From Bifidobacterium lemurum (GTDB lineage Bacteria; Actinomycetota; Actinomycetes; Actinomycetales; Bifidobacteriaceae): a stretch of DNA of 64,000 nucleotides. The position numbers and the translations under genes were made by a program. This document shows positions 20,224 to 32,158 of the stretch, piece after piece (position 1 is the stretch's first letter; each line of letters begins with the position of its first letter). The notes under the pieces were generated by a model that was given only the letters and a program-made list of their open reading frames with translations, made no database searches and was not told the DNA's origin. The stretch spans positions 1,674,001-1,738,000 of the forward strand of contig NZ_CP062948.1 in the NCBI RefSeq assembly GCF_014898175.1, in the 5' to 3' direction.

Positions 20224-21219
20224 GTGCTTATTGCACAGCGTCCGACACTGACCGAGGAGTCCCTGAACCCGCAGCGTTCGCGTTTCATCATCGAGCCGCT
20301 CGAGCCTGGCTTCGGCTACACGCTCGGCAACTCGCTTCGTCGTACGCTCCTGAGCTCCATTCCGGGTGCCGCGGTGACCTCTGTGCGCGTTTCCGGCGCA
20401 CTGCACGAGTTCACCACGCTGCCTGGCGTGCAGGAGGATGTGACCGAGATTCTGCTCAACATCAAGGGCATCGTGCTCACCAGCGAATACGATGAGCCGG
20501 TGGTCATGTATCTGCGCAAGAGCGGCAAGGGCGAGGCCACCGCGGGGGACATCACCCCTCCGGCCGGCGTGACCATCGCCAACCCCGATCTGCACATCGC
20601 CACCCTCGCCGAGGACGGCGAACTCGAGATCGAGTTCACCGTCGAGCGCGGCCGCGGCTATGTGCCGGCTCAGATGAACAAGCAGGACAGCGATGAGATC
20701 GGCCGCATCCCGGTCGATTCCATCTACTCCCCGGTGCTCAAGGTGAGCTACAAGGTCGAGGCCACCCGTGTGGAACAGCGCACGGACTTCGACAAGCTCA
20801 TTCTGGACGTGGAGACCAAGCCCGCCATCTCCCCGCGTGACGCGGTGGCTTCCGCCGGCTCGACCCTGGTGGAGCTCTTCGGCCTGTGCCGCGAGCTCAA
20901 CATCCAGGCCGAGGGCGTCGAGGTCGGTCCGGCTCCCGTGGCCGAAGAGACCAACCCCGAGATGGCCGTGCCGATCGAGGACCTCAACCTCACCCAGCGC
21001 AGCTACAACTGCCTCAAGCGTGAGGGCATCCACACCATCGGCGAGCTCGTCTCCCACACCGAGCAGGACCTGCTCGACATCCGCAATTTCGGTATGAAGT
21101 CCATCGATGAGGTCAAGGACAAGCTGCAGACCCTGGGTCTGGCGCTGAAGACCTCGCCGATTGCCTTCGACACCACCAACCTCGAAGGCGGCACCTTCTT
21201 CTCCCCGGAAGACGAGTGA
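20224..21219 (+). CDS. rpoA: RNA polymerase alpha subunit
   Basis: 331 aa. The N-terminal dimerisation domain begins [29 protein letters not shown] (the alpha signature), and the C-terminal domain (about residues 250-310) carries the helix-hairpin-helix that binds UP elements and activators ([16 protein letters not shown]). The start is GTG 20224 after AAAGGA. It ends with an acidic FSPEDE tail. Confidence 0.98.
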
Positions 21220-21314
21220 GAACAGCCGCTTTTGCATAACCGTTCGGAAGACGGGTCGCGGACGTTCGGGCATATGCCCACCTGCGACCCGGCCGGACAA
21301 TAAGGAGAAAACCC

Positions 21315-21869
21315 ATGCCTACACCGAAGAAGGGCCCGCGCCTGGCGTCCAGCCCCGCGCATGAGCGCCTCATGCTGGCGAACATGGCCACCAGCCTGTT
21401 CCAGAACGGCCGCATCGTCACCACGCTGCCGAAGGCCAAGCGCCTCCGTCCGCTGGCCGAGCGCCTGATCACCTTCGCCAAGCGCGGTGATCTGCACTCC
21501 CGCCGTCGTGTGATGCGCGTCATCCGCAACAAGTCCGTGGTGCACATCCTGTTCACCCAGATCGCCGAGCAGATGGAGCAGCGCGAAGGCGGCTACACCC
21601 GCATCGTGAAGATCGCCCCGCGCGTCGGCGACAACGCCCCCGCCGCGATCATCGAGCTCGTCACCGAGCCGGTGAGCGCGAAGAAGGCCGTGGTCAAGGA
21701 AGCCGAAGCCGCCGTCAAGGTCGCCGAGGAAGCCCCGGTCGAGGTCGAGGAGACCAAGGTCGAAGCCGAAGCCACCGAGGTTGCTGAGGCTGTTGAGACC
21801 GAGGCCGTTGAGGCCGCCGAGGTGGAGAACACCGAGGCCGCCGCTGATGAGGCCGAGAAGGCCGAGTGA
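21315..21869 (+). CDS. rplQ: 50S ribosomal protein L17 with long acidic tail
   Basis: 184 aa against about 120 for most bacteria. Residues 1-117 are a normal L17 ([20 protein letters not shown]...ANMATSLF). The rest is a Glu/Ala/Val-rich acidic tail built of repeats such as [17 protein letters not shown]. Tails of this kind occur in other actinobacteria; the role is unknown. It is the last gene of the ribosomal cluster, with a terminator behind it. Confidence 0.97.
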
Positions 21870-21891
21870 GCTAGCTTCACAACGCATTGAC

Positions 21892-21928
21892 AAGGGTCGG
21901 AAATCCGTAAAGGGTTTCCGGCCCTTTT
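21892..21928 (+). terminator. rplQ: terminator of the ribosomal-protein cluster
   Basis: AAGGGTCGGAAATCC (21892-21906) pairs imperfectly with GGTTTCCGGCCCTT (21913-21926) and continues into TT. It lies 23 bp after rplQ and separates it from truA. Confidence 0.85.
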
Positions 21929-21989
21929 CGCATCGTATCGCGTGCCTCGCACCGTGTTCGGTGTCGGGCGTCGGCGGCGTGGCCGTAGT

Positions 21990-22901
21990 ATGGAAGCCAT
22001 GACACGACTTCGCATTGACTTGGCGTACGACGGCGGCGGATTCTACGGTTGGGCGACGCAGCCGGCATTGCGCACCGTGCAGGGCACCATCGAGTCGGCG
22101 TTGCACACCGTGCTGCGCGTCCCGCAAGACGATCCCGACCAACGGCTGCGTCTGACCGTGGCGGGCCGGACCGACACCGGCGTGCACGCCAGCCATCAGG
22201 TGTGCCATATCGATCTCGACGAGGCGCTGCTGGAGCGCGCGGTCGGGCATATGAACGTCTCCGGCGTCGAGGCGTTGCATCGCAGGCTCTCCCGCATGCT
22301 GCCCGACGACATCACCCTCCACCGCGTCGGCCGCGCTCCCAACGGCTTCGACGCGCGCTTCTCCGCGCTGGAACGCACCTACGTCTATCGCATCGCCGAC
22401 CGGGGGAGCGAAGTCGACCCCAGACTGCGCGGTTTCGTGCTGCGGATCGACGACCGGCTCGATCTGGACGCCATGAACGAGGCCGCGGCGATGACCATCG
22501 GCCTGCATGATTTCGGATCCTTCGCCACACCGAATCCGGGCGGCACCACCATTCGCGAGGTGAAATACGCGCGATGGGAGCGCGTGCCCGTCCGTCCTCT
22601 GATCGACAAGACCGGTCTGGCCTACGAAACCCCCGCCGTGGAGTCCGGCCTGGCGTGCCTCACCATCGTGGCCGACGCCTTCGCGCGCAATATGGTGCGC
22701 TCCCTGGTCAACGGATGCGTGCAAGTGGGCCTCGGCAAACGCGACCTCGATTGGTTCGCCGGCAAAATGGCCGTGCCCCTGCGCGAGGGATCCACCGGCC
22801 CCATCGCCCCCCAGGGCCTGACGCTGGAACATATCGCCTATCCGGCCGACGACCAGCTCGCCGCCCGCGCCGAAGCCATCCGTGCCGTGCGCACGCTGTA
22901 G
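21990..22901 (+). CDS. truA: tRNA pseudouridine(38-40) synthase
   Basis: 303 aa from ATG 21990; ATG 21999 (MTRLRIDLAYDGGGFYGWA) is an equally good start. The catalytic Asp is in AGRTDTGVHA (about residue 63). The enzyme isomerises uridines 38-40 in the anticodon arm of tRNAs. Pairing with rplQ is common in actinobacteria. It is separated from rplQ by a terminator, so it has its own promoter. Confidence 0.96.
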   Translation: MEAMTRLRIDLAYDGGGFYGWATQPALRTVQGTIESALHTVLRVPQDDPDQRLRLTVAGRTDTGVHASHQVCHIDLDEALLERAVGHMNVSGVEALHRRLSRMLPDDITLHRVGRAPNGFDARFSALERTYVYRIADRGSEVDPRLRGFVLRIDDRLDLDAMNEAAAMTIGLHDFGSFATPNPGGTTIREVKYARWERVPVRPLIDKTGLAYETPAVESGLACLTIVADAFARNMVRSLVNGCVQVGLGKRDLDWFAGKMAVPLREGSTGPIAPQGLTLEHIAYPADDQLAARAEAIRAVRTL

Positions 22902-23175
22902 CGGGTCCTGGACTCCCGCCCGTTTCGCTTGGGTCGGGACGCGTGCCGTCCGCGCGTCGCGGCGAATGCGGCGGGTGGAAGATGCGGCATGGAGGAACGC
23001 CTCGGCGAAGCGTATGCGCCCGCTTCGTCCACCCGACTTATTATCGCGCCCGTAACATAATCGCACGCTGGCGGAAACCGCACCGTTCTAGGCTGATCGG
23101 CATGCCCGGCATCATACGTTCCAAACGGGGCGACGCCGGGCCGACCCACAGGCATCCACCCAGGGAGCGGAGACG

Positions 23176-25362
23176 ATGATTGAACGTGCGGCGCGTACAC
23201 TCGCGAACGAGCTGATCAACCGACGCGAGGACATCAACCGGGAGCTCAGCCGCAACGGCGTGCGCTTCGGCGTGACCAGCGGCGGCGAATATCACGACCG
23301 GCTGTTCCCCTACGATCCGATTCCGCGGATCATCGAATCCGACGAATACGACCGGCTGGAGGCGGGCCTGAAGCAGCGCGTCAACGCGTTGAACGCCTAC
23401 CTTGCCGACATCTACTCCGACAAGCGCATCATCCATGACGGCGTGATACCTGAGGAATTCGTCTACACCTCCGCCGGCTATTTTCCGCAGGTCAACGGCG
23501 TGACGCCGCCGGGCGGGGTGTTCGCGCACATCGCGGGCGAGGATCTGGTGCAGGGCGAGGACGGCCGCTGGTGGGTGCTGGAGGACAATCTGCGCATTCC
23601 CTCCGGCGCCAGTTATCCGCTGTTCGCGCGCGATATCGAACGGCGCATCAACCCCAAACTGTTCCGCGAGGTGCGCGTGCGCGACAACCGCGACTATCCG
23701 CGGCTGCTGCGCAAGGCCATGGATTTCGTCTCCACCGAGGGCATCGCCGTGGTGCTCACGCCCGGACGATACAACTCCGCGTTCTTCGAACACGCCTATC
23801 TGGCGGAGAAAACCGGCGCGACGCTCGCCTTCCCCGAAGACCTCGAGGTGATGAACAACCAGCTGTTCTTCCTCGACTACGCGGGCAACAGGCATCGCGT
23901 GGGCGTGGTCTACCGCAGGCTCTCCGACGAATACCTCGACCCCTTCGCCTTCAATCCCGATTCCGTGATCGGCGTGCCGGGGCTGCTTTCCGCCTACCGC
24001 GCCGGCAATGTGGCGATCGTCAACGCGCCGGGCAACGGCGCGGCCGACGACAAGGCGATCTACTATTTCGTGCCGCGGATGATCCGGTACTACCTCGGCG
24101 AGGAGCCGTTGCTGAACAACGCCCCCACCTACATGCCGATGTTCGAGGACGACCGCGCCGTCGTGCTCGACAGGCTCGGCGAGCTCGTGATCAAGGACGT
24201 GGCCGAGGCGGGCGGCTACGGCGTGGTGTTCGGACGCGACCTCGACCGCGCGGCCCGCGCCGAGCTGGCCGAACGCATCGCCGCCGAGCCGCGCCGCTTC
24301 ATCGCCCAGGAGGTGATCCAGTTCAAGGACCTCGACGTGGTCGATCCGCTCACCGGCAGGGAAACCCCGCGCAAGGCCGACCTGCGCGCGTTCGTCGTCA
24401 CCGGGCAGAACACGCACGTATGGTATTCGGGACTCACCCGCTACTCCTCGGTGCCGGGGCAGATGATCGTCAATTCATCGCAGGGAGGCGGATTCAAAGA
24501 CACGTGGGTGCTCGCGCCCGACGATCCCAACCACAAGCCCATCCGACGCGACGAGCATATCGAATCGGTGAACCTGATGCCGCATTCTCGCTCGCACGCG
24601 CTGGCCTTGGTCACCGCCTCGAAGGCCGACAACCTGTTCTGGCTGGGGCGGTACACCGAACGCGCGTTCACCACGTTGGTCCAGTTCCTGCCCTTCTATG
24701 ACCGCGTGATGGACACGGACGTGGACGCGTTCCGTCCCTTCGCCCGGGCGCTCGACCTGCCGCAGGATTTCGAGGATTTCGACGCGTTCATCCGCAGCTT
24801 CCTGTACGACGGCGACCAGCCCGATTCGGTGCGCAGCGCCATCGTCGCCGCGTTCAACAACGCGGTGATCCTGCGGCCGGAACTCAGTTCGCGCCTGCTG
24901 CAATACATCGAACTGGCGGTGACGAACATCACCGACGCTGCCAGCCGCTTCGCCAACGCGGAGGACATCTACAAGCAGCGCGACATCGCCGACAACATAC
25001 TCGCCTTCTGGGGAGGCGTCGAGAACTCGACGGTCGATCCCAGCCTCAAGGCCTTCATCTTCATCGGCAAATACGTCGAACGCATCGACCTGTACACGCG
25101 GCTGAACCTACCGGCCAGTGAGATGGCGGCGCCGATGGGCAAACTCGAGACCTACTCGCGCACGTTGGACGGCATGCCGCTGCCGCAATGCTTCGCGGAC
25201 GGCGTGCGCTGGCTGCTCGCCCAGCTTCCCGAACGCGGATACCCCGAACTGGTGGAGCGGCTGCGGATGTTCCTCGACGACTTCGGCGGGCGGTCCATCG
25301 CTTCCGAAGCCAAGGATATGGGACAGCTCAACGCCATGAACATGGACGCGGAACGGCCCTGA
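23176..25362 (+). CDS. circularly permuted ATP-grasp / alpha-E fusion protein
   Basis: 728 aa. Residues ~1-460 are a circularly permuted type-2 ATP-grasp domain (formerly DUF404/407): GGEYHDRLFPYDPIPRI, WWVLEDNLRIPSGASY and the hallmark NSSQGGGFKDTWVL near residue 435-448. Residues ~480-728 are the all-helical alpha-E domain (formerly DUF403), marked by NLFWLGRYTERAF. In most bacteria these are separate neighbouring genes; here they form one chain. Comparative genomics has proposed an amide- or peptide-bond-forming role, but no substrate is established. A transglutaminase-like gene follows 249 bp downstream on the same strand, the recurrent partner. The start ATG 23176 follows GGGAGCGGAG. Confidence 0.93.
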   Translation: MIERAARTLANELINRREDINRELSRNGVRFGVTSGGEYHDRLFPYDPIPRIIESDEYDRLEAGLKQRVNALNAYLADIYSDKRIIHDGVIPEEFVYTSAGYFPQVNGVTPPGGVFAHIAGEDLVQGEDGRWWVLEDNLRIPSGASYPLFARDIERRINPKLFREVRVRDNRDYPRLLRKAMDFVSTEGIAVVLTPGRYNSAFFEHAYLAEKTGATLAFPEDLEVMNNQLFFLDYAGNRHRVGVVYRRLSDEYLDPFAFNPDSVIGVPGLLSAYRAGNVAIVNAPGNGAADDKAIYYFVPRMIRYYLGEEPLLNNAPTYMPMFEDDRAVVLDRLGELVIKDVAEAGGYGVVFGRDLDRAARAELAERIAAEPRRFIAQEVIQFKDLDVVDPLTGRETPRKADLRAFVVTGQNTHVWYSGLTRYSSVPGQMIVNSSQGGGFKDTWVLAPDDPNHKPIRRDEHIESVNLMPHSRSHALALVTASKADNLFWLGRYTERAFTTLVQFLPFYDRVMDTDVDAFRPFARALDLPQDFEDFDAFIRSFLYDGDQPDSVRSAIVAAFNNAVILRPELSSRLLQYIELAVTNITDAASRFANAEDIYKQRDIADNILAFWGGVENSTVDPSLKAFIFIGKYVERIDLYTRLNLPASEMAAPMGKLETYSRTLDGMPLPQCFADGVRWLLAQLPERGYPELVERLRMFLDDFGGRSIASEAKDMGQLNAMNMDAERP

Positions 25363-25460
25363 GCGGGCTGGACAGGTCCGGTCGAGCCGGTCCGGCCGCG
25401 AGTCCGCGGGGTTTGGACTGGCTCGACCGGGACCGGGCCTGCCCGGCCGCTTCCGGATCC

Positions 25461-25496
25461 GGTTTGGCCGGTTTGGTCGGTTTGGCCGGTTTGGGA
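25461..25496 (+). repeat. four 9-bp tandem repeats
   Basis: GGTTTGGCC, GGTTTGGTC, GGTTTGGCC and GGTTTGGGA follow one another. They lie within a GC/GT-rich, low-complexity 249-bp spacer between the ATP-grasp/alpha-E gene and the transglutaminase gene. The repeats are in phase with no gene. Confidence 0.85.
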
Positions 25497-25611
25497 CGGG
25501 CCCGGCGCGGCGAAACGGGTGAGATCGGTAAGACGTCCCCGTCCTGTGGGCCGGCGGAGCTGGTAAGGTGGACGGGACGTTTCGCGCATCCTTTGAGGAG
25601 TTCGATATTCC

Positions 25612-26412
25612 ATGAAGAAACTGGTGTTTGACTATGAGATGAGGCTCAGCTTCAGCTCGCCGGTCACCGACCACCGTTTCCAGCTGCGTTGCGTTCCCGC
25701 GACGGGTCCGCGCCAGCAGATTGTGGACGTGCAGATCGCGATGGAGCCCGACGTGGAGTTGGAGACCACCGTCGATTCGTTCGGTTCGGTGGTCAACACG
25801 GGGTATATTCCGCAGGCGCACACGGTGTTCAACTACCGGGTGACGGGCATCGCCTTCGTGGACAACGCCCATATCAAGCCGGAGATCGACAAGCCGCTGT
25901 ACCGTTTCGATTCCGCGCTGACCATCCCCGGCCCCGCCGTCACGGCACTGATCGAGGTGTGCCGCGCGCGGGTGGAGGCGCTGCCGTCCGACGCGACGCC
26001 GATCGAACGCGCCCGCGAGGTGATGGACGAGGTGTACCGCGCCTTCGTCTACACGCCCGGCGCCACCACCATCCGCACCACGGCCGAAGAGGCGTTCACG
26101 CAGCGCAAAGGCGTCTGCCAGGACTACGCCCACGTCATGCTCGCCGTCTGCCGTCATCTGGGACTGGGGGCGCGCTATATCGCCGGACTGCTCGGCGGCG
26201 AGGGCGCCACCCACGCATGGGTCGAGGTCTACCACGACCGGCGTTGGATCGGACTCGACCCCACGCACAACCGCATGGTCGACGACAACTACATCACCAT
26301 CGCCCATGGGCGAGACTACCGCGACTGCATGCTCGACATCGGCATATTCTCCGGCGACGACGTGCGCCAGACCCAATGGGTGAACGCCTCCGTGCACGAA
26401 CAGGAGCTGTGA
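25612..26412 (+). CDS. transglutaminase-like cysteine protease/transferase family protein
   Basis: 266 aa. The N-terminal ~85 residues form the bacterial-transglutaminase beta domain (Bact_transglu_N type). The core follows with the Cys-His-Asp triad: Cys in KGVCQDYAHVML, His in GATHAWVEVY and Asp in WIGLDPTHN. There is no signal peptide, so it is cytoplasmic. Proteins of this type repeatedly occur beside ATP-grasp/alpha-E proteins. They could cut or transfer an isopeptide bond made by the ligase, but this is inference. The start ATG 25612 has GAGGAG upstream. Confidence 0.92.
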   Translation: MKKLVFDYEMRLSFSSPVTDHRFQLRCVPATGPRQQIVDVQIAMEPDVELETTVDSFGSVVNTGYIPQAHTVFNYRVTGIAFVDNAHIKPEIDKPLYRFDSALTIPGPAVTALIEVCRARVEALPSDATPIERAREVMDEVYRAFVYTPGATTIRTTAEEAFTQRKGVCQDYAHVMLAVCRHLGLGARYIAGLLGGEGATHAWVEVYHDRRWIGLDPTHNRMVDDNYITIAHGRDYRDCMLDIGIFSGDDVRQTQWVNASVHEQEL

Positions 26413-26442
26413 TCGCGCGGGCGGCCCGGCGCGGCACGCCGG

Positions 26443-26470
26443 TTGCACGGGCGAAAAAATGTGGCATAAT
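26443..26470 (+). promoter_or_regulatory. promoter of tRNA-Ser(CGA)
   Basis: -35 TTGCAC (26443-26448), a 16-bp spacer, then -10 CATAAT (26465-26470). The predicted start is about 20 bp before the mature tRNA 5' end. Confidence 0.7.
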
Positions 26471-26496
26471 GGACAAGTTGCTTTTCGAAGCAGCAT

Positions 26497-26585
26497 GGAT
26501 GAGTGTCCGAGCGGTCTAAGGAGCACGCCTCGAAAGCGTGTGAGGGCGAACCCCTCCGCGAGTTCGAATCTCGCCTCATCCGCCA
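26497..26585 (+). tRNA. tRNA-Ser (anticodon CGA)
   Basis: Class II tRNA with a 7-bp acceptor stem GGATGAG/CTCATCC, an anticodon stem CACGC/GCGTG enclosing CTCGAAA, a long variable arm, the T-loop GTTCGAATC and an encoded CCA end (26583-26585). It reads UCG codons. A promoter lies upstream and a terminator immediately downstream, so it is a single-gene unit. Confidence 0.97.
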
Positions 26586-26587
26586 CC

Positions 26588-26620
26588 AAGGGTTTTGGGT
26601 TCCGCCCAAAACCCTTTTTC
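26588..26620 (+). terminator. tRNA-Ser(CGA) terminator
   Basis: AAGGGTTTTGGG and the complementary GCCCAAAACCCTT around a TTCC loop, ending in TTTTT. It begins 3 bp after the tRNA CCA. Confidence 0.92.
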
Positions 26621-26806
26621 ATGCCGAATTCCGGTGCTTTTACGTTTTGCCCATTTCGACGCACGGTATGCATCACGCCTACGGAACGGTCCCGTCATAC
26701 GGGTCACACGGCGGTCTTGATGTTGCTATCGCTGATACTCGATGCCGTCACATGCGGCATCCTCGTTGATATGACGGGCCGTTTACCGGCGTGAGCCGAT
26801 AAGCAA

Positions 26807-26837
26807 AAGGCCCGGCACTAGCAATACCGGGCCTTCT
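26807..26837. terminator. hairpin AAGGCCCGG/CCGGGCCTT in a gene-free stretch
   Basis: AAGGCCCGG (26807-26815) pairs with CCGGGCCTT (26827-26835) and runs into TCT. It is terminator-like in both directions, but no recognised gene lies directly upstream. I see nothing in 26621-26806. The hairpin and the repeats after it divide the 500-bp gap between tRNA-Ser and the lipoprotein gene. Confidence 0.55.
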
Positions 26838-26912
26838 GTGTGATTGTCGGCTTACGTCGGCTTATCACTAAGGTTGCGATATGAAGCATATCACGATGCA
26901 CGGAAGCCTGAC

Positions 26913-27137
26913 CGTGGACGAATCGCTACATACCGTCGAGTCATCCACACTGAGCGCACTAAGCGTGGATGATTGGTCACTATCTGCCAACTCAACCACG
27001 TTGGCGTGGCCATCATCGTGGATGAATCGTCAATATGTGTCAGTTCATCCACGCTGACGAAGATGGCACCGTGGATGACTGGTTATTATCCGTCAATCCG
27101 CCCACGCCGACGGAGACATCGCCGTGGATTATTCGAA
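26913..27137. repeat. degenerate ~53-bp tandem repeat with internal dyads
   Basis: Four units begin CGTGGACGA or CGTGGATGA at 26913, 26964, 27017 and 27070, spaced 51, 53 and 53 bp. A partial fifth begins at 27123 (CGTGGATT) and runs into the 3' end of the lipoprotein gene. About 30 bp into each unit is a near-complement such as TCATCCAC(G), so each unit can fold into a CGTGGATGAA/TTCATCCACG-type hairpin. The rest of each unit is diverged. There is no open protein frame and no cas gene nearby. Confidence 0.8.
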
Positions 27138-27980
27138 GAGGGCGGCGTCGCTGGTGGGGTAGCCGAGTCGGAAGGCCTGATAGGCGTGTTGGGCCACCAG
27201 ATCCGCCAGTATGGCCGCGCTTTCGGCATCCGTGCCGGACCAGGACGCGGCTTCGGCGCGCGCGCAATCCATTTCGATCGCGGCGACCATTTGGACCCTC
27301 AGGCCGGTGGCGGTGTCCGTCACGGTGTCGGCATCTGCGATCAGCGTGTCGACGGCATACACTTTCTGCCGGGGATCGTCTTCGGAATCCGGCTCCACGC
27401 CCGCCAAGGACACCAACTGCTGCGCCGTGGCCTTATGGTCGTCGCCGGTGTCGAGATCCGCATACGGCACGCCACGCGCGGCGAGCACCTCGATGGCGAA
27501 TCCGGCGCGGTCCTCCGCCAGCGCCATGTCGAGCAGCGCCTGCGGATCCGCATCCAAGGACTCCACGCCGTCAAGGCGGGCGTACCGCGTCCGCTGCGCG
27601 GCGCTCTGCCCCAGCTTCGCGGCCAGAGACGCTTGGACCAGTTCGGCGCGCGCGCTCGACAGCGCGCCCTCGCCGAATCGTTCCGAGCATTGCGCGGCCA
27701 CCTCAAGCCAGTCGTCGGGCTGGGAGAGCGAGGCGATATAGCGCACCAACAGGGGCTCGCCGCTGTCCGCGGCCATCATCGAGGAGCGTGAACGCGCGTC
27801 CACGTACGCGCTTTCGCACGCGCTCATCTCCCGTTCCGCTTCGGCCCGGCCCGCAAGGCGCGGCGCATCGCACGCGGCGAGCGACACCGTCAATCCCGCG
27901 GCCGCCAGCAGCGCGAGGGCGCGCGTGGCCCAAGTCGCGCGAGGGGAGTGGGCATGCTGGAACCGATGACGTGTCTGCAT
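27129..27980 (-). CDS. predicted lipoprotein of unknown function
   Basis: 283 aa. It has an N-terminal signal with twin Arg (ATRALALLAAAGLTVSLAAC) and a lipobox LAAC near residue 37, so it is predicted to be a membrane-anchored exported lipoprotein. The mature part is acidic, helical and Ala-rich, with no family I recognise. It contains two Cys besides the lipid anchor (CESAY, CSERF) and one more (MDCARAEA). It is divergent from nusA with a 74-bp shared promoter region, and its 3' end abuts the 53-bp tandem repeats. Confidence 0.8.
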   Translation of the reverse strand: MQTRHRFQHAHSPRATWATRALALLAAAGLTVSLAACDAPRLAGRAEAEREMSACESAYVDARSRSSMMAADSGEPLLVRYIASLSQPDDWLEVAAQCSERFGEGALSSARAELVQASLAAKLGQSAAQRTRYARLDGVESLDADPQALLDMALAEDRAGFAIEVLAARGVPYADLDTGDDHKATAQQLVSLAGVEPDSEDDPRQKVYAVDTLIADADTVTDTATGLRVQMVAAIEMDCARAEAASWSGTDAESAAILADLVAQHAYQAFRLGYPTSDAALFE

Positions 27981-28054
27981 ACGAAACTACACTAATAGTT
28001 GACTGTGACCATATGGGCCAAGCGCTCGGAAATAACTTCATAGGAGGTCGGACG

Positions 28055-29101
28055 ATGGAACTGGATCTGACTGGAATGCACAAGCTCGCCGCCGAGCAGG
28101 GGATCGATCCCGAGACGCTGGATGACGCACTGGCCGAGGCCTTGCGTCTCGCCTATCTGAAAACCCCACACGCCGCCAAGCACGCCCGCGTCGAGCTGGA
28201 CGAGCGTTCGGGCAGCTTCACCGTATGGGCCGTGGACGAGATCCGTCAGGAGCCCACCGAGGACGATCCGCACCCCGCGCCCACGTTCAGCGAGGAATAT
28301 GACGACACTCCGCACGATTTCGGCCGTCTCGCCGCCGCCACCGCGCGCCAGGTCATCAGCCAGCTGTTCCGCAAGGCCGAGGACGACAAGGTGTTCGGCG
28401 CGTTCTCCGGCCAGAAGGGCAAGCTCATCACCGGCATCATCCAGCAGGACGTCTCCGATCCGACGAACGTGCACGTGGCCATCGGCGATGTCGAGGCCAT
28501 TCTGCCGCGTCGTGAGCAGGTGCCGGGCGAACGCTACCGCCACGGCGAGCGTCTGCGCGTGTATGTGGTGAACGTGGCCCGCGGATTGAAGGGCCCGGAG
28601 ATCGTCGTCTCCCGTTCCCATCCCGAATTGGTGCGCAGGCTGTTCGAGCGCGAGGTGCCGGAGCTGGTGTCGGGCGCGGTGTCGATTATGGCCATCGCCC
28701 GCGAGGCCGGCGCGCGCACGAAGCTCGCGGTGAAGGCCAACACCGAAGGCGTGAACCCCAAGGGCGCGCTGATCGGTCCCGGCGGCGCGCGCGTGCGTGC
28801 GGTGATGGAGAATCTGGGGCCGGAGAAGATCGATATCGTCGACTGGTCCGAGGACCCCGCCAAGTTCGTGGCCGCCGCGCTCAGCCCGGCCGTGGCGACC
28901 GGCGTGCAGGTGATCAGCGAGAAGAACAAGACCGCCATCGCGTTCATCCACGACGACCAGCTGTCGCTGGCCATCGGCAAGGAGGGACAGAACGCTCGTC
29001 TGGCCGCCAAGCTCACCGGCTGGAAGATCGGCATCGAATCCGCCGAAGCCCATGCGCTCAAGACCGCGGAGAACACCGAAGCGGCGTCGAGCGCGGAATG
29101 A
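28055..29101 (+). CDS. nusA: transcription termination/antitermination factor NusA
   Basis: 348 aa from ATG 28055 ([18 protein letters not shown]) with TAGGAGG 8 bp upstream; the frame is open further upstream but is not conserved. Domain order: N-terminal polymerase-binding domain (1-~130), S1 (~135-200), then two KH domains ([24 protein letters not shown] and [21 protein letters not shown]). There is no C-terminal acidic repeat domain, as is usual in actinobacteria. It controls pausing, termination and rRNA antitermination. Confidence 0.97.
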
Positions 29102-29115
29102 CCGACAACTGACAT

Positions 29116-29168
29116 CGTGCCGCTGGATGGCGCGCGGCTCGCTTCGAGCGGCGACATCCAGCGGCACG
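29116..29168 (+). promoter_or_regulatory. 14-bp perfect hairpin between nusA and infB
   Basis: CGTGCCGCTGGATG (29116-29129) and CATCCAGCGGCACG (29155-29168) are exact complements. A TTGATTTT stretch follows 6 bp later. Terminator or RNA-processing site; the nusA-infB gap (228 bp) holds no credible gene. Confidence 0.6.
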
Positions 29169-29329
29169 AGTATGCTTGATTTTCGATGCGGGCAGGCGCA
29201 CGACGCGCCGTCATGCCCCGCGAAGAGACGAGGTAACACGATCATGGTCGCACGATGAGACAGGGTAGGCTTGCCATCATCACAGACTGACCACGCCCAA
29301 TCACGCGTGGTCTCAGATAGGAGTAATTA

Positions 29330-32158
29330 GTGGCGAAACCACGCGTATACGAATTGGCCAAGGATTTGAACGTCGACAGCAAGGCCGTTCTCGAAAAGCT
29401 CAAGGACATGGGCGAGTTCGTGAAATCCGCTTCCTCGACGGTGGAGCCCCCGGTGGCCCGCCGTCTTCGGGCCGCATTCGCCAAGTCCGAATCCGGCGAG
29501 GCCAAGGCCGCGCCGAAGACCCAGGCGCCCGCCCCGGCCGCCAAGCCGGTGGCGAAGCCGGCCGCACCCGCTCCGGCGGCGCCTAAGCCCGCGGCGCAGT
29601 CTCCGACTCCGTCCGCTCCGGCTCCGAGCCCGGCGGCTCCGGCCAAGCCCGCCGCCAAACCGCAGCAGGATCCCGCGCAGCCGCGCGCCGCGCGTCCGGC
29701 GCAGCCTCGCAACGGCGGCGCTCCCAACGCCCGTCCGCAAAATCCCGCCGCCCGCCCCACGCCCAATGCCGGTGCCGCAGGCGCTAACGGCGCTGCCGGC
29801 GCGGCGGGTTCCGCCGCGCGTCCCCACACCCCCGGTCCTCGTCCGGGCAACAATCCGTTCAGCCGCAAGCAGGGCATGCGCACGCCGACCCCCGGCGATA
29901 TTCCGCGCCCGCATCCGATGGCCCGACCGAATGTCGAGGGCGGCCGTGGCGGCCGTCCGGGTCGTCCCGGTCAGGGAGGCCAGCAGGGCGGCGGCGCTCG
30001 CGGAGGCTTCCGCGGCGGTCGTCCCGGTCAGGGAGGCGCGCAGGGCGCGCGTCCGGGCCAGTGGGGCCACAACCGTCCCGGTCAGGGAGGCCAGCAGGGC
30101 GGCGCCCAAGGCGGCTTCCGCGGCGGTCGTCCCGGTCAGGGAGGCGGCGCCCAGGGCGGTAACAATTTCCAAGGCGGCGGCGCGCCGAGCAACGGTCCCG
30201 CACGTGGCGGCGGCCGCGGTCGCGGCGGTGCCGCGGGCGCGTTCGGCCGTCAGGGCGGCAAGTCCTCGAAGGCGCGTAAGAACCGTCTGGCGAAGCGTCA
30301 GGAGTTCGAGGAGCTGAAAGCGCCGACCATCGGCGGCGTGCGCATCCCCAACGGCGGCGGTCAGACCGTGCGTCTGCGTCAGGGCGCCACGTTGGCCGAT
30401 CTGGCCGAGAAGATCAACGTCAATCAGGCCGCGCTGGTGACCGTGCTCTTCCACCTGGGCGAGATGGCCACGGCCACGCAGTCCCTCGACGAGGCGACCT
30501 TCCAGATTCTGGGCGACGAGATCGGCTGGAACATCAAGCTCGTCTCCGCCGAGGAGGAGGACAAGGAGCTGCTCCAGCAGTTCGACATCAACCTCGACGA
30601 GGAAGAACTGCAGGACGACGAGGATCTTCAGCCCCGTCCGCCGGTCGTCACCGTCATGGGCCATGTCGACCACGGTAAGACCCGACTACTCGACACCATC
30701 CGCAGCACCAACGTCATCGCACGCGAGGCCGGCGGCATCACCCAGCGCATCGGCGCCTACCAGGTGACGGTGGAGCTGGAGGGCGAGCCGCGCAAGATCA
30801 CCTTCCTCGACACCCCGGGCCACGAGGCGTTCACCGCCATGCGTGCCCGCGGCGCCGAGCTCACCGACGTCGCGATCCTCGTGGTCGCCGCCGACGACGG
30901 CGTGATGCCCCAGACCGTGGAGGCCATCAACCACGCGCAGGCGGCCCATGTGCCGATCGTCGTGGCCGTCAACAAGATCGACAAGGAAGGCGCCAACCCC
31001 GACAAGGTGCGCGGCCAGCTCACCGAATTCGGCCTCGTGCCGGAGGAGTACGGCGGCGACACCATGTTCGTCGACATCTCCGCCAAGCAGGGGCTGAACG
31101 TCGACAAGCTGCTCGAAGCGGTGCTGCTCACCGCCGACGCCGAACTCGACCTGAGGGCCAACCCGGATATGGACGCCCGCGGCGCCACCGTGGAGGCCCG
31201 CCTCGACAAGGGCCGCGGTGCCGTGGCCACCGTGCTCGTGCAGTCCGGAACGCTCCACGTGGGCGACGCCATCGTGGCTGGCACCTCGTATGGCCGCGTG
31301 CGCGCCATGCTCGACGAGAACGGCAACCCGATGAAGGAGGCCGTGCCCTCCAGCCCGGTGCAGGTGCTCGGTCTGACCTCCGTGCCGACCGCGGGCGACC
31401 TGTTCCTCGTGGCTTCGGACGACCGCGCCGCCCGCCAGATCGCCGAGAAGCGTCAGGCCACCGAGCGCGCCGCCCAGCTGGCCAAGCGCCGCAAGGTCGT
31501 CTCGCTCGAGGACTTCAAGAAGAAGCTCGCCGAGTCCGAGGTCGATATGCTCAACATCGTCATCAAGGGCGATTCCTCCGGCTCCGTTGAGGCGCTCGAG
31601 GACTCCCTGATGAAGATCGAGGTGTCCGACGAGGTCGGCATCCAGGTCATCCACCGCGGCGTCGGCGCGATCACCCAGAACGACGTCAACCTCGCCACGG
31701 TCGACAAGGCCGTCATCATCGGCTTCAACGTGCGCCCGAACCGTCAGGTCGCCGACCTGGCCGAGCGCGAGGGCGTGGAGATCAAGTACTACTCGATCAT
31801 CTACAAGGCCATCGAAGACATCGAAGCCTCCCTCAAGGGCATGCTCAAGCCGGAATACGAAGAGGTCACTACCTCGCACTCCGAGATCCGCGAGATCTTC
31901 CGCTCCTCCAAGTTCGGCAACATCGCCGGCGTGCTGGTGCAGGACGGCGAGGTCAAGCGCGGAACGAAGTGCCGCATCCTGCGCAACGGCGTGGCCACGG
32001 TCAACGATCTGGAGATCTCCTCGCTGCGCCGTTTCAAGGACGACGTCACCTCCGTCAAGGAAGGTTACGAGGCCGGCATCAACCTCGGCTCCTTCAACGA
32101 CATCGAAATCGGCGACATCATCGAGACCTTCGAGATGCGCGAGGTCGAACGCAAGTAG
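29330..32158 (+). CDS. infB: translation initiation factor IF-2
   Basis: 942 aa, start GTG 29330 with TAGGAG upstream. Residues ~1-60 are the IF2-N fold, followed by an Ala/Pro/Lys-rich linker. A Gly/Arg/Gln-rich region (about 200-310) has repeated GGRPGQGG units. A second IF2-N module precedes the GTPase: G1 GHVDHGKT (~444-451), G3 DTPGHE, G4 NKID. The rest is the standard C-terminal part that binds fMet-tRNA. IF-2 delivers initiator tRNA and promotes subunit joining. The repeat linker may vary between strains. Confidence 0.98.

Follow-up and report, generated by a model that had tools for sequence, protein, structure and literature searches.

The circularly permuted ATP-grasp, alpha-E and transglutaminase-like families make up a module that is already known from many phyla, and a study by Iyer et al. 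in 2009 is said to be the founding comparative work on these families. The module is kin to the 'Anbu operon' of Yersinia and Pseudomonas, in which ATP-grasp, alpha-E and transglutaminase genes follow one another in that order. A comparable pairing of activities is found in the glutathionylspermidine synthetase/amidase Gss of Escherichia coli, where an ATP-grasp ligase is teamed with a papain-like cysteine amidase. Here a two-gene version of the module is described from Bifidobacterium lemurum, at positions 23,176 to 26,412 of a 64,000-nucleotide stretch (contig NZ_CP062948.1, positions 1,674,001 to 1,738,000; hereafter the window, numbered from its first letter). It consists of a fused ATP-grasp/alpha-E protein (the ligase) and a transglutaminase-fold protein, thus the same families in the same order as in the Anbu operon, but with ATP-grasp and alpha-E fused, a shortened alpha-E domain and a candidate GlnR-type promoter site. 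We propose that the pair is an amide ligase induced by nitrogen limitation together with a partner enzyme of the thiol type, either an amidase or an acyltransferase, and put the probability of this reading at roughly 55%.

A link to nitrogen has been described for relatives. In Burkholderia cenocepacia, I35_5080-5083 (DUF404/407, DUF403 and two transglutaminase-like proteins) are given values from -6.0 to -9.4 for an ntrC mutant and are placed in the NtrC/sigma54 regulon in the excerpt available of PMC5491218. The excerpts of PMC6376114 and PMC5666114 cite work in which Pseudomonas putida expressed Anbu more strongly when nitrogen was limiting, and that of PMC3597751 ties the domains to urea metabolism in marine metagenomes. 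The initial annotation of this locus held that neither substrate nor product is established, which agrees with PMC6376114 and PMC5666114 as excerpted: the ATP-grasp relative of Yersinia bercovieri frees phosphate from ATP with no acceptor identified, and pull-downs with the operon proteins gave no specific interactions (PMC6376114). A metagenome clone with antinematode activity is annotated as ATP-grasp/alpha-E/transglutaminase/protease in the excerpted review table of PMC7764037, a hint that the product of the module may be bioactive. A literature search turned up no paper on ATP-grasp plus transglutaminase in Bifidobacterium. The features of the locus are as follows.

23176..25362, + strand: fused circularly permuted ATP-grasp/alpha-E protein of 728 aa, a single open reading frame (ORF; ORF list, Pfam)
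23323..24444, + strand: ATP-grasp domain, residues 50-423 (Pfam)
23542-23544, 23581-23583 and 23587-23589, + strand: codons of the conserved ATP-grasp residues D123, E136 and N138 (alignment)
24625..25104, + strand: shortened alpha-E domain, residues 484-643 (Pfam), with the ER motif at 24631-24666
25612..26412, + strand: transglutaminase-fold protein of 266 aa (ORF list, Pfam)
26116-26118, 26212-26214 and 26257-26259, + strand: codons of the triad Cys169, His201 and Asp216 (alignment)
23052..23078, + strand: candidate GlnR-type box GTAAC-N17-GAAAC, the lone match to GTAAC-N17-GWAAY in the 64-kb window
23089..23094, + strand: -10-like hexamer TAGGCT (TAnnnT pattern), 10 nt past the box

The fused chain of circularly permuted ATP-grasp and alpha-E domains that the initial annotation had recognised was recovered as an ORF and by Pfam, which matched CP_ATPgrasp_1 to residues 50-378 (484 bits), CP_ATPgrasp_2 to residues 50-423 (464 bits) and Alpha-E to residues 484-643 (64 bits against a cut-off of 20.8). 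The alpha-E domain is called shortened because its match spans only positions 6-164 of the 294 in the profile. D123, E136 and N138 are residues that we take to correspond to those forming the magnesium site in ATP-grasp ligases. The best relative of the ATP-grasp part with a solved structure is 3n6x (residues 12-446), deposited as a 'putative glutathionylspermidine synthase'. In the neighbouring protein, Transglut_core was matched at residues 127-217 (79 bits) and Bact_transglu_N at 8-80 (45 bits), with 3isr as the best relative of solved structure. The intact Cys-His-Asp triad ascribed to it earlier is borne out, Cys169, His201 and Asp216 being unchanged across all 33 aligned rows, the window copy counted.

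The two genes are inherited together across the genus. Among 112 congeneric genomes, the fused ligase was matched in 63, near full length in 58 and as remnants in five (G006, G007, G019, G020, G060). The transglutaminase-fold protein was matched in 61, namely the same 58 and three remnants; in these three (G019, G020, G060) the remnants of both genes lie side by side between truA and the nusA region, and the other two remnant genomes keep ligase pieces only. All 58 carrier loci were retrieved and examined. Both genes share one strand in every one of them, the distance from the aligned ligase end to the start of the transglutaminase-fold gene ranges from 33 to 297 bp, and truA lies inside the retrieved stretch in 53. 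Conserved linkage in other bifidobacteria, on which the proposal of a joint amide-bond system had been staked, is therefore present, the same 58 genomes out of 112 having both genes, side by side. One locus, in a genome with 8% contamination (G059, contig C1, 114381-122060), occurs twice in inverted orientation and is possibly an assembly artefact.

A closer inspection of these copies also bears on whether the pair is a dispensable relic, that is, a cluster that was once acquired, persists by inertia and is now decaying. The intact pair is absent or a remnant in 54/112 genomes, one ligase has an in-frame stop (G049; the other 57 of 58 are single ORFs of at least 690 aa) and one transglutaminase-fold gene has a frame break (G048). 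However, D123, E136, D137, N138, K293, K340, Q378, D402, R404, K441 and D442 are identical in 57/57 readable ligases, as are W489, G491, R492, E495 and R496 of the alpha-E domain (N486 in 54/57), C169, H201 and D216 are identical in 57/57 readable copies of the partner, and the promoter box is kept at 54/58 loci. A relic is accordingly a very improbable explanation. The same counts answer an earlier concern that close homologues might have lost their ATP-binding residues: among the residues examined, none has been lost. Another view is that of nitrogen scavenging, in which the transglutaminase-fold protein would mainly deamidate or transamidate protein glutamines and so free ammonia, with the ligase acting separately. 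The excerpt of PMC6376114 brings up the idea that the transglutaminase frees ammonia when cells are starved of nitrogen, and a nitrogen-type promoter appears to be present here, but the strict co-inheritance with an ATP-grasp ligase is left unexplained, and we regard scavenging as unlikely.

The regulatory side of the proposed amide ligase rests on the promoter box. Comparison of the 300-bp regions upstream of the fused genes brought out the pattern GTAAC...G(A/T)AAC. GTAAC-N16-18-GWAAY was found upstream of the fused gene in 54/58 congeneric loci, with a spacing of exactly 17 in 48, compared with a mean of 0.07 loci and a largest count of 2 in 200 shuffles. Control regions contained no box for the transglutaminase-fold gene (0/58), truA (0/48), nusA (0/13), infB (0/11) and rpoA (0/22); four of 26 rplQ regions did, in each case the fused gene's own box overlapping the stretch taken. 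The shuffles overstate the independence of these counts because the loci are kin by descent, and the poor conservation of the flanks of the box is the better argument for it in these alignments. Alignment of the 48 rows by their boxes brought out two more elements that had played no part in the row selection, namely the hexamer and, 11 nt upstream of the box, a GTgAC-like half-site, both rising above flanks of 0.2-0.4 bits; the upstream half-site was not found in the window's own promoter region. Of the 54 box-bearing loci, 52 have TAnnnT at exactly 10 nt past the box. The box was also retained in G006 (L115), where no more than roughly the first 116 residues of the ligase gene behind it could be recovered.

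The same arrangement recurs at glnA, the main nitrogen-assimilation gene. Thirty congeneric glnA loci were retrieved, of which three could not be anchored; the promoter carries the box in 25 of the remaining 27, with TAnnnT 9 nt past it in 21/25. In the organism's own genome GTAAC-N17-GWAAC matches four times, two of these being the fused gene and glnA. In other Actinomycetales, three amtB loci with the box were found (L240, L243, L246). The excerpt of PMC10704036, a review, gives the GlnR consensus as gTnAc-n6-GaAAc-n6-GtnAC-n6-GAAAc and places GlnR sites in the glnA promoter of Bifidobacterium longum; GlnR homologues exist in Bifidobacterium according to PMC4977719, as excerpted. Taken together, these data suggest that the fused gene shares a candidate GlnR-type box with glnA and that the pair acts when nitrogen is short. 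While the box, like the genes, their domains and conserved residues and their co-inheritance, is read directly from sequence, we infer that it is GlnR that binds it. It is also conceivable that MtrA, another regulator of the OmpR family, acts at this site and that the pair has no nitrogen role, given reports that MtrA can occupy the GlnR boxes of Streptomyces and that it competes with GlnR (PMC10704036, excerpt). The presence of the same box and TAnnnT hexamer at congeneric glnA, and of GlnR sites in the B. longum glnA promoter, makes this improbable. Riboswitch control was considered and set aside, as only tRNAs reached gathering score in ten gut loci and only a tRNA-Ser did so in window positions 21000-32000.

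Several observations weigh against control of the pair by GlnR. The exact box is not enriched genome-wide (four matches, against four in a backward control), and amtB of the same genome, a usual GlnR target, lacks an N17 box and has only closer-spaced half-sites. The box was not found at four of the 58 bifidobacterial loci (L013, L121, L127, L129), at both of the fused loci outside the genus, at 20/20 unfused actinomycete loci and at 27/27 gut and Campylobacterota loci. Moreover, a 27-bp weight matrix built from the glnA sites scored the fused-gene sites poorly (median -5.0, 1/45 at 10 or more; control medians -9.2 to -17.3, shuffles -11.6). Half-sites and spacing were counted in place of the full matrix, since shared descent may account for what the glnA sites have in common at their inner positions.

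The nearest relatives of the ligase are not those of its own order. In a sample of Actinomycetales, CP_ATPgrasp_2 was matched in 123/248 genomes and Alpha-E in 110/248, and three sets of loci were distinguished. In the first, twenty hand-picked high scorers fetched with wider flanks (L132-L151), the ATP-grasp, alpha-E and transglutaminase genes adjoin in that order in 20/20. These loci share the gene order of the bifidobacterial module and an ATP-grasp 38-46% identical to it, but have three genes, fall on another branch of the tree and lack the box. Their ligase tails are glutamine-rich, with QQQ or longer in 19/20 and a terminal cysteine in 14/20; such a tail beside a transglutaminase gene could be that enzyme's own substrate, and none was seen in the other-phylum loci inspected. 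The second set comprises ATP-grasp/alpha-E fusions of about 850 aa (B-type; two were Pfam-scanned) with at least one transglutaminase nearby. In the third set (five loci) neither alpha-E nor transglutaminase was matched. A tree (L110 excluded) sets the actinomycete groups apart from the bifidobacterial ligase.

The B-type fusions have the same domain order in one chain, yet kinship with them was rejected by their separate branch and their lost residues. E136, N138, K293 and D402 are present in 103/103 non-B rows and in 0/13 B-type rows of a 116-row alignment, while D123 is kept in 116/116, B-type rows counted. This count left out L109, L110, L218 and L226, together with the loci lacking a whole ligase ORF (L160, L176, L200, L201, L206, L213, L221, L227). 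The 13 B-type rows (L092-L103, L111) are thus without residues that every other group in the comparison shares, and these fusions may have lost ligase activity. That the bifidobacterial fusion keeps, in these alignments, the residues lost in the 13 tested B-type fusions is a new point. The initial annotation had argued that the fusion removes doubt that the two domains act together. They are indeed fused here, but the argument is weaker than stated, because fusions of about 850 aa are widespread in Actinomycetales as a separate branch, and because unfused loci already have both domains as neighbouring genes in 20/20.

A scan of named genomes, from which the best 80 of 594 candidates were taken, gave as nearest kin outside the genus unfused ATP-grasps of mostly 56-61% identity from Lachnospiraceae, Ruminococcus, Bacteroidales, Treponema and others, followed by those of Campylobacterota at 52-55%. 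In a 106-row tree (loci without a whole ligase ORF, such as L160 and L176, omitted) the bifidobacterial rows group with the gut rows in a single clade (SH-aLRT 99), away from the actinomycete operon. A phylum-wide sample of 296 genomes (E 1e-60) contributed two more full-length fused copies, both from one family (G434, G445), at 72% identity and with transglutaminase-fold neighbours 70-75% identical. The fused copies form one clade (100/100) nested in the gut clade (99/99), with weak support (91/77) for its closest sister rows. The fused form is therefore common to gut Actinomycetota and, on these trees, most likely derived from the gut-anaerobe operon; vertical descent from the unfused actinomycete operon is disfavoured. 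Truncated ligase pieces, 76-77% identical, were seen in Thermophilibacter and another Actinomycetota genome (L201 5689-6795, L300 6265-6873) and are apparently decayed transfers.

The gut-anaerobe operon (25 loci, L152-L176) has a short alpha-E and a related transglutaminase, but its ATP-grasp and alpha-E are unfused, it bears no GlnR-type box and it contains two further genes. Five loci end at contig edges (L158, L161, L165, L173, L174). In 18 of the 20 that are complete, two extra genes lie downstream of the transglutaminase, making a five-gene operon, and both are of the AspA/AstE family (PF24827); L169 and L171 are without the pair. In L177-L179 it follows alpha-E directly, with no transglutaminase between. 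Two motifs, HGDE and further along the chain HSSN/HASN, are present in the first AspA/AstE-type protein in 8/8 aligned rows. In the second, both histidines are gone at these places in 8/8 rows and the glutamate is mostly kept. These histidines are presumably metal ligands, and the L152-L179 operons likely encode an active protein with an inactive paralogue. PF24827 was found beside the ligase at 0/51 loci outside the gut group and anywhere in 0/112 congeneric genomes. By sequence, then, the bifidobacterial form belongs to the gut-anaerobe subfamily, with its first two genes fused and the AspA/AstE pair not found, which is a further new point; a literature search found no report joining a succinylglutamate desuccinylase to at least two of transglutaminase, ATP-grasp and alpha-E.

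These partners bear on a protein-tagging role as put forward for the Anbu operon, in which the ligase would modify proteins with an amino acid or a peptide that the transglutaminase-fold protein takes off again, in the manner of ubiquitin or Pup. The idea is published for the related four-gene operon (PMC6376114, excerpt), and here too an amide ligase adjoins an amide-attacking thiol enzyme. However, the 64-kb window holds no Anbu-like gene, four Anbu-like queries giving only matches of 24-28 residues (E 0.02-0.04), and PF00227 is unmatched in the organism's own genome, although this model misses most Anbu-like neighbours at the usual threshold. Of 120 loci tested, 10 had Anbu-like genes, and no actinomycete, B-type or gut locus was among these 10. 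The partners in gut anaerobes, moreover, belong to AspA/AstE, a family in which the members with names have small N-acyl amino acids as substrates. Protein tagging is therefore considered a rather poor prospect. A role in anti-phage defence was rejected, neither protein having a PADLOC match.

The preferred reading, a nitrogen-regulated amide ligase with a thiol partner, would work as follows. Transcription would start from a GlnR-type promoter built as in glnA. The ATP-grasp half would convert a carboxylate to an acyl phosphate and couple it to an amine, with the covalently joined alpha-E half as an obligatory non-catalytic partner (a scaffold, or a docking site for substrate or partner). The transglutaminase-fold protein would attack an amide, forming an acyl-enzyme at Cys169 that is then resolved by hydrolysis or transfer; this amide is probably what the ligase itself makes, or something closely similar. 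The module would then operate like glutathionylspermidine synthetase/amidase but join other compounds, most likely an acid of the glutamyl type with either an amino acid or a small amine. The original suggestion that the ligase builds a product which the transglutaminase trims or transfers is plausible in this light. We infer the ligation, the common substrate and the direction of the transglutaminase-fold reaction, and this chemical part is less firm than the regulatory one.

A point against the chemistry is that neither glutamine nor glutamate increased phosphate release by the Yersinia relative, which could simply be hydrolysing ATP (PMC6376114, excerpt). The amidase family of Gss, moreover, differs from that of the transglutaminase-fold protein, and the ATP-grasp profile has no detectable similarity to E. 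coli Gss (hhalign probability 0.5%). Glutamate-cysteine ligase 2 (GCS2) occurs in 55/58 carriers compared with 36/54 non-carriers (Fisher p 0.0002), but genome size and kinship are confounders of this count, and for this reason the co-occurrence is not treated as main evidence. In a separate paralogue from the third actinomycete set (L104, 4596-7154, Pfam-scanned), GCS2 lies ahead of the circularly permuted ATP-grasp, possibly as a two-step peptide synthetase, and this arrangement is a hint of glutamyl chemistry.

Regulator sites were also sought upstream of relatives in other phyla, using consensus patterns (that for sigma54 slightly stricter in the gut/Campylobacterota set). A sigma54-type site precedes the ATP-grasp gene in 8/45 other-phylum loci, where shuffled sequences gave a mean of 0.07. 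Sites for Firmicute TnrA/GlnR, NtrC, NtcA and sigma54 were found upstream of 0/27 gut and Campylobacterota operons each. Because the Burkholderia relative is under NtrC/sigma54, nitrogen control of this module may recur through unrelated regulators.

The remaining features of the locus concern its surroundings. The pair is flanked by a truA-like pseudouridine synthase gene on one side and the nusA/infB region on the other (truA, rplQ and nusA were assigned by Pfam; other neighbours were recognised from their ORFs only). The gap between the two genes, 249 bp in the window and about 62 bp in the sister genome G031, contains the 9-bp repeat CCGGTTTGG four times (25459-25494), with GC-rich inverted repeats nearby. 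Downstream lie two further features.

26497-26585: tRNA-Ser gene, between the transglutaminase-fold gene and a terminator-like hairpin
26597..26614, + strand: terminator-like hairpin 3' of the tRNA-Ser gene (weak; 3 sites found against a shuffle mean of 2.2)

In its widest form, which we put forward tentatively and as rather less probable than not, the proposal is that gut bifidobacteria carry a minimal live module wired to GlnR, which under nitrogen limitation would make and re-open an undescribed amide metabolite, such as a glutamyl-type nitrogen carrier or store, with independent NtrC/sigma54 control in Proteobacteria. The 54 of 112 species without an intact copy are a natural comparison for the carriers, and the two-gene version with its apparent promoter switch in gut commensals offers a small, inducible system in which to find the amide. 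If the proposal is true, the module would be a general and so far unrecognised branch of the bacterial response to nitrogen starvation.

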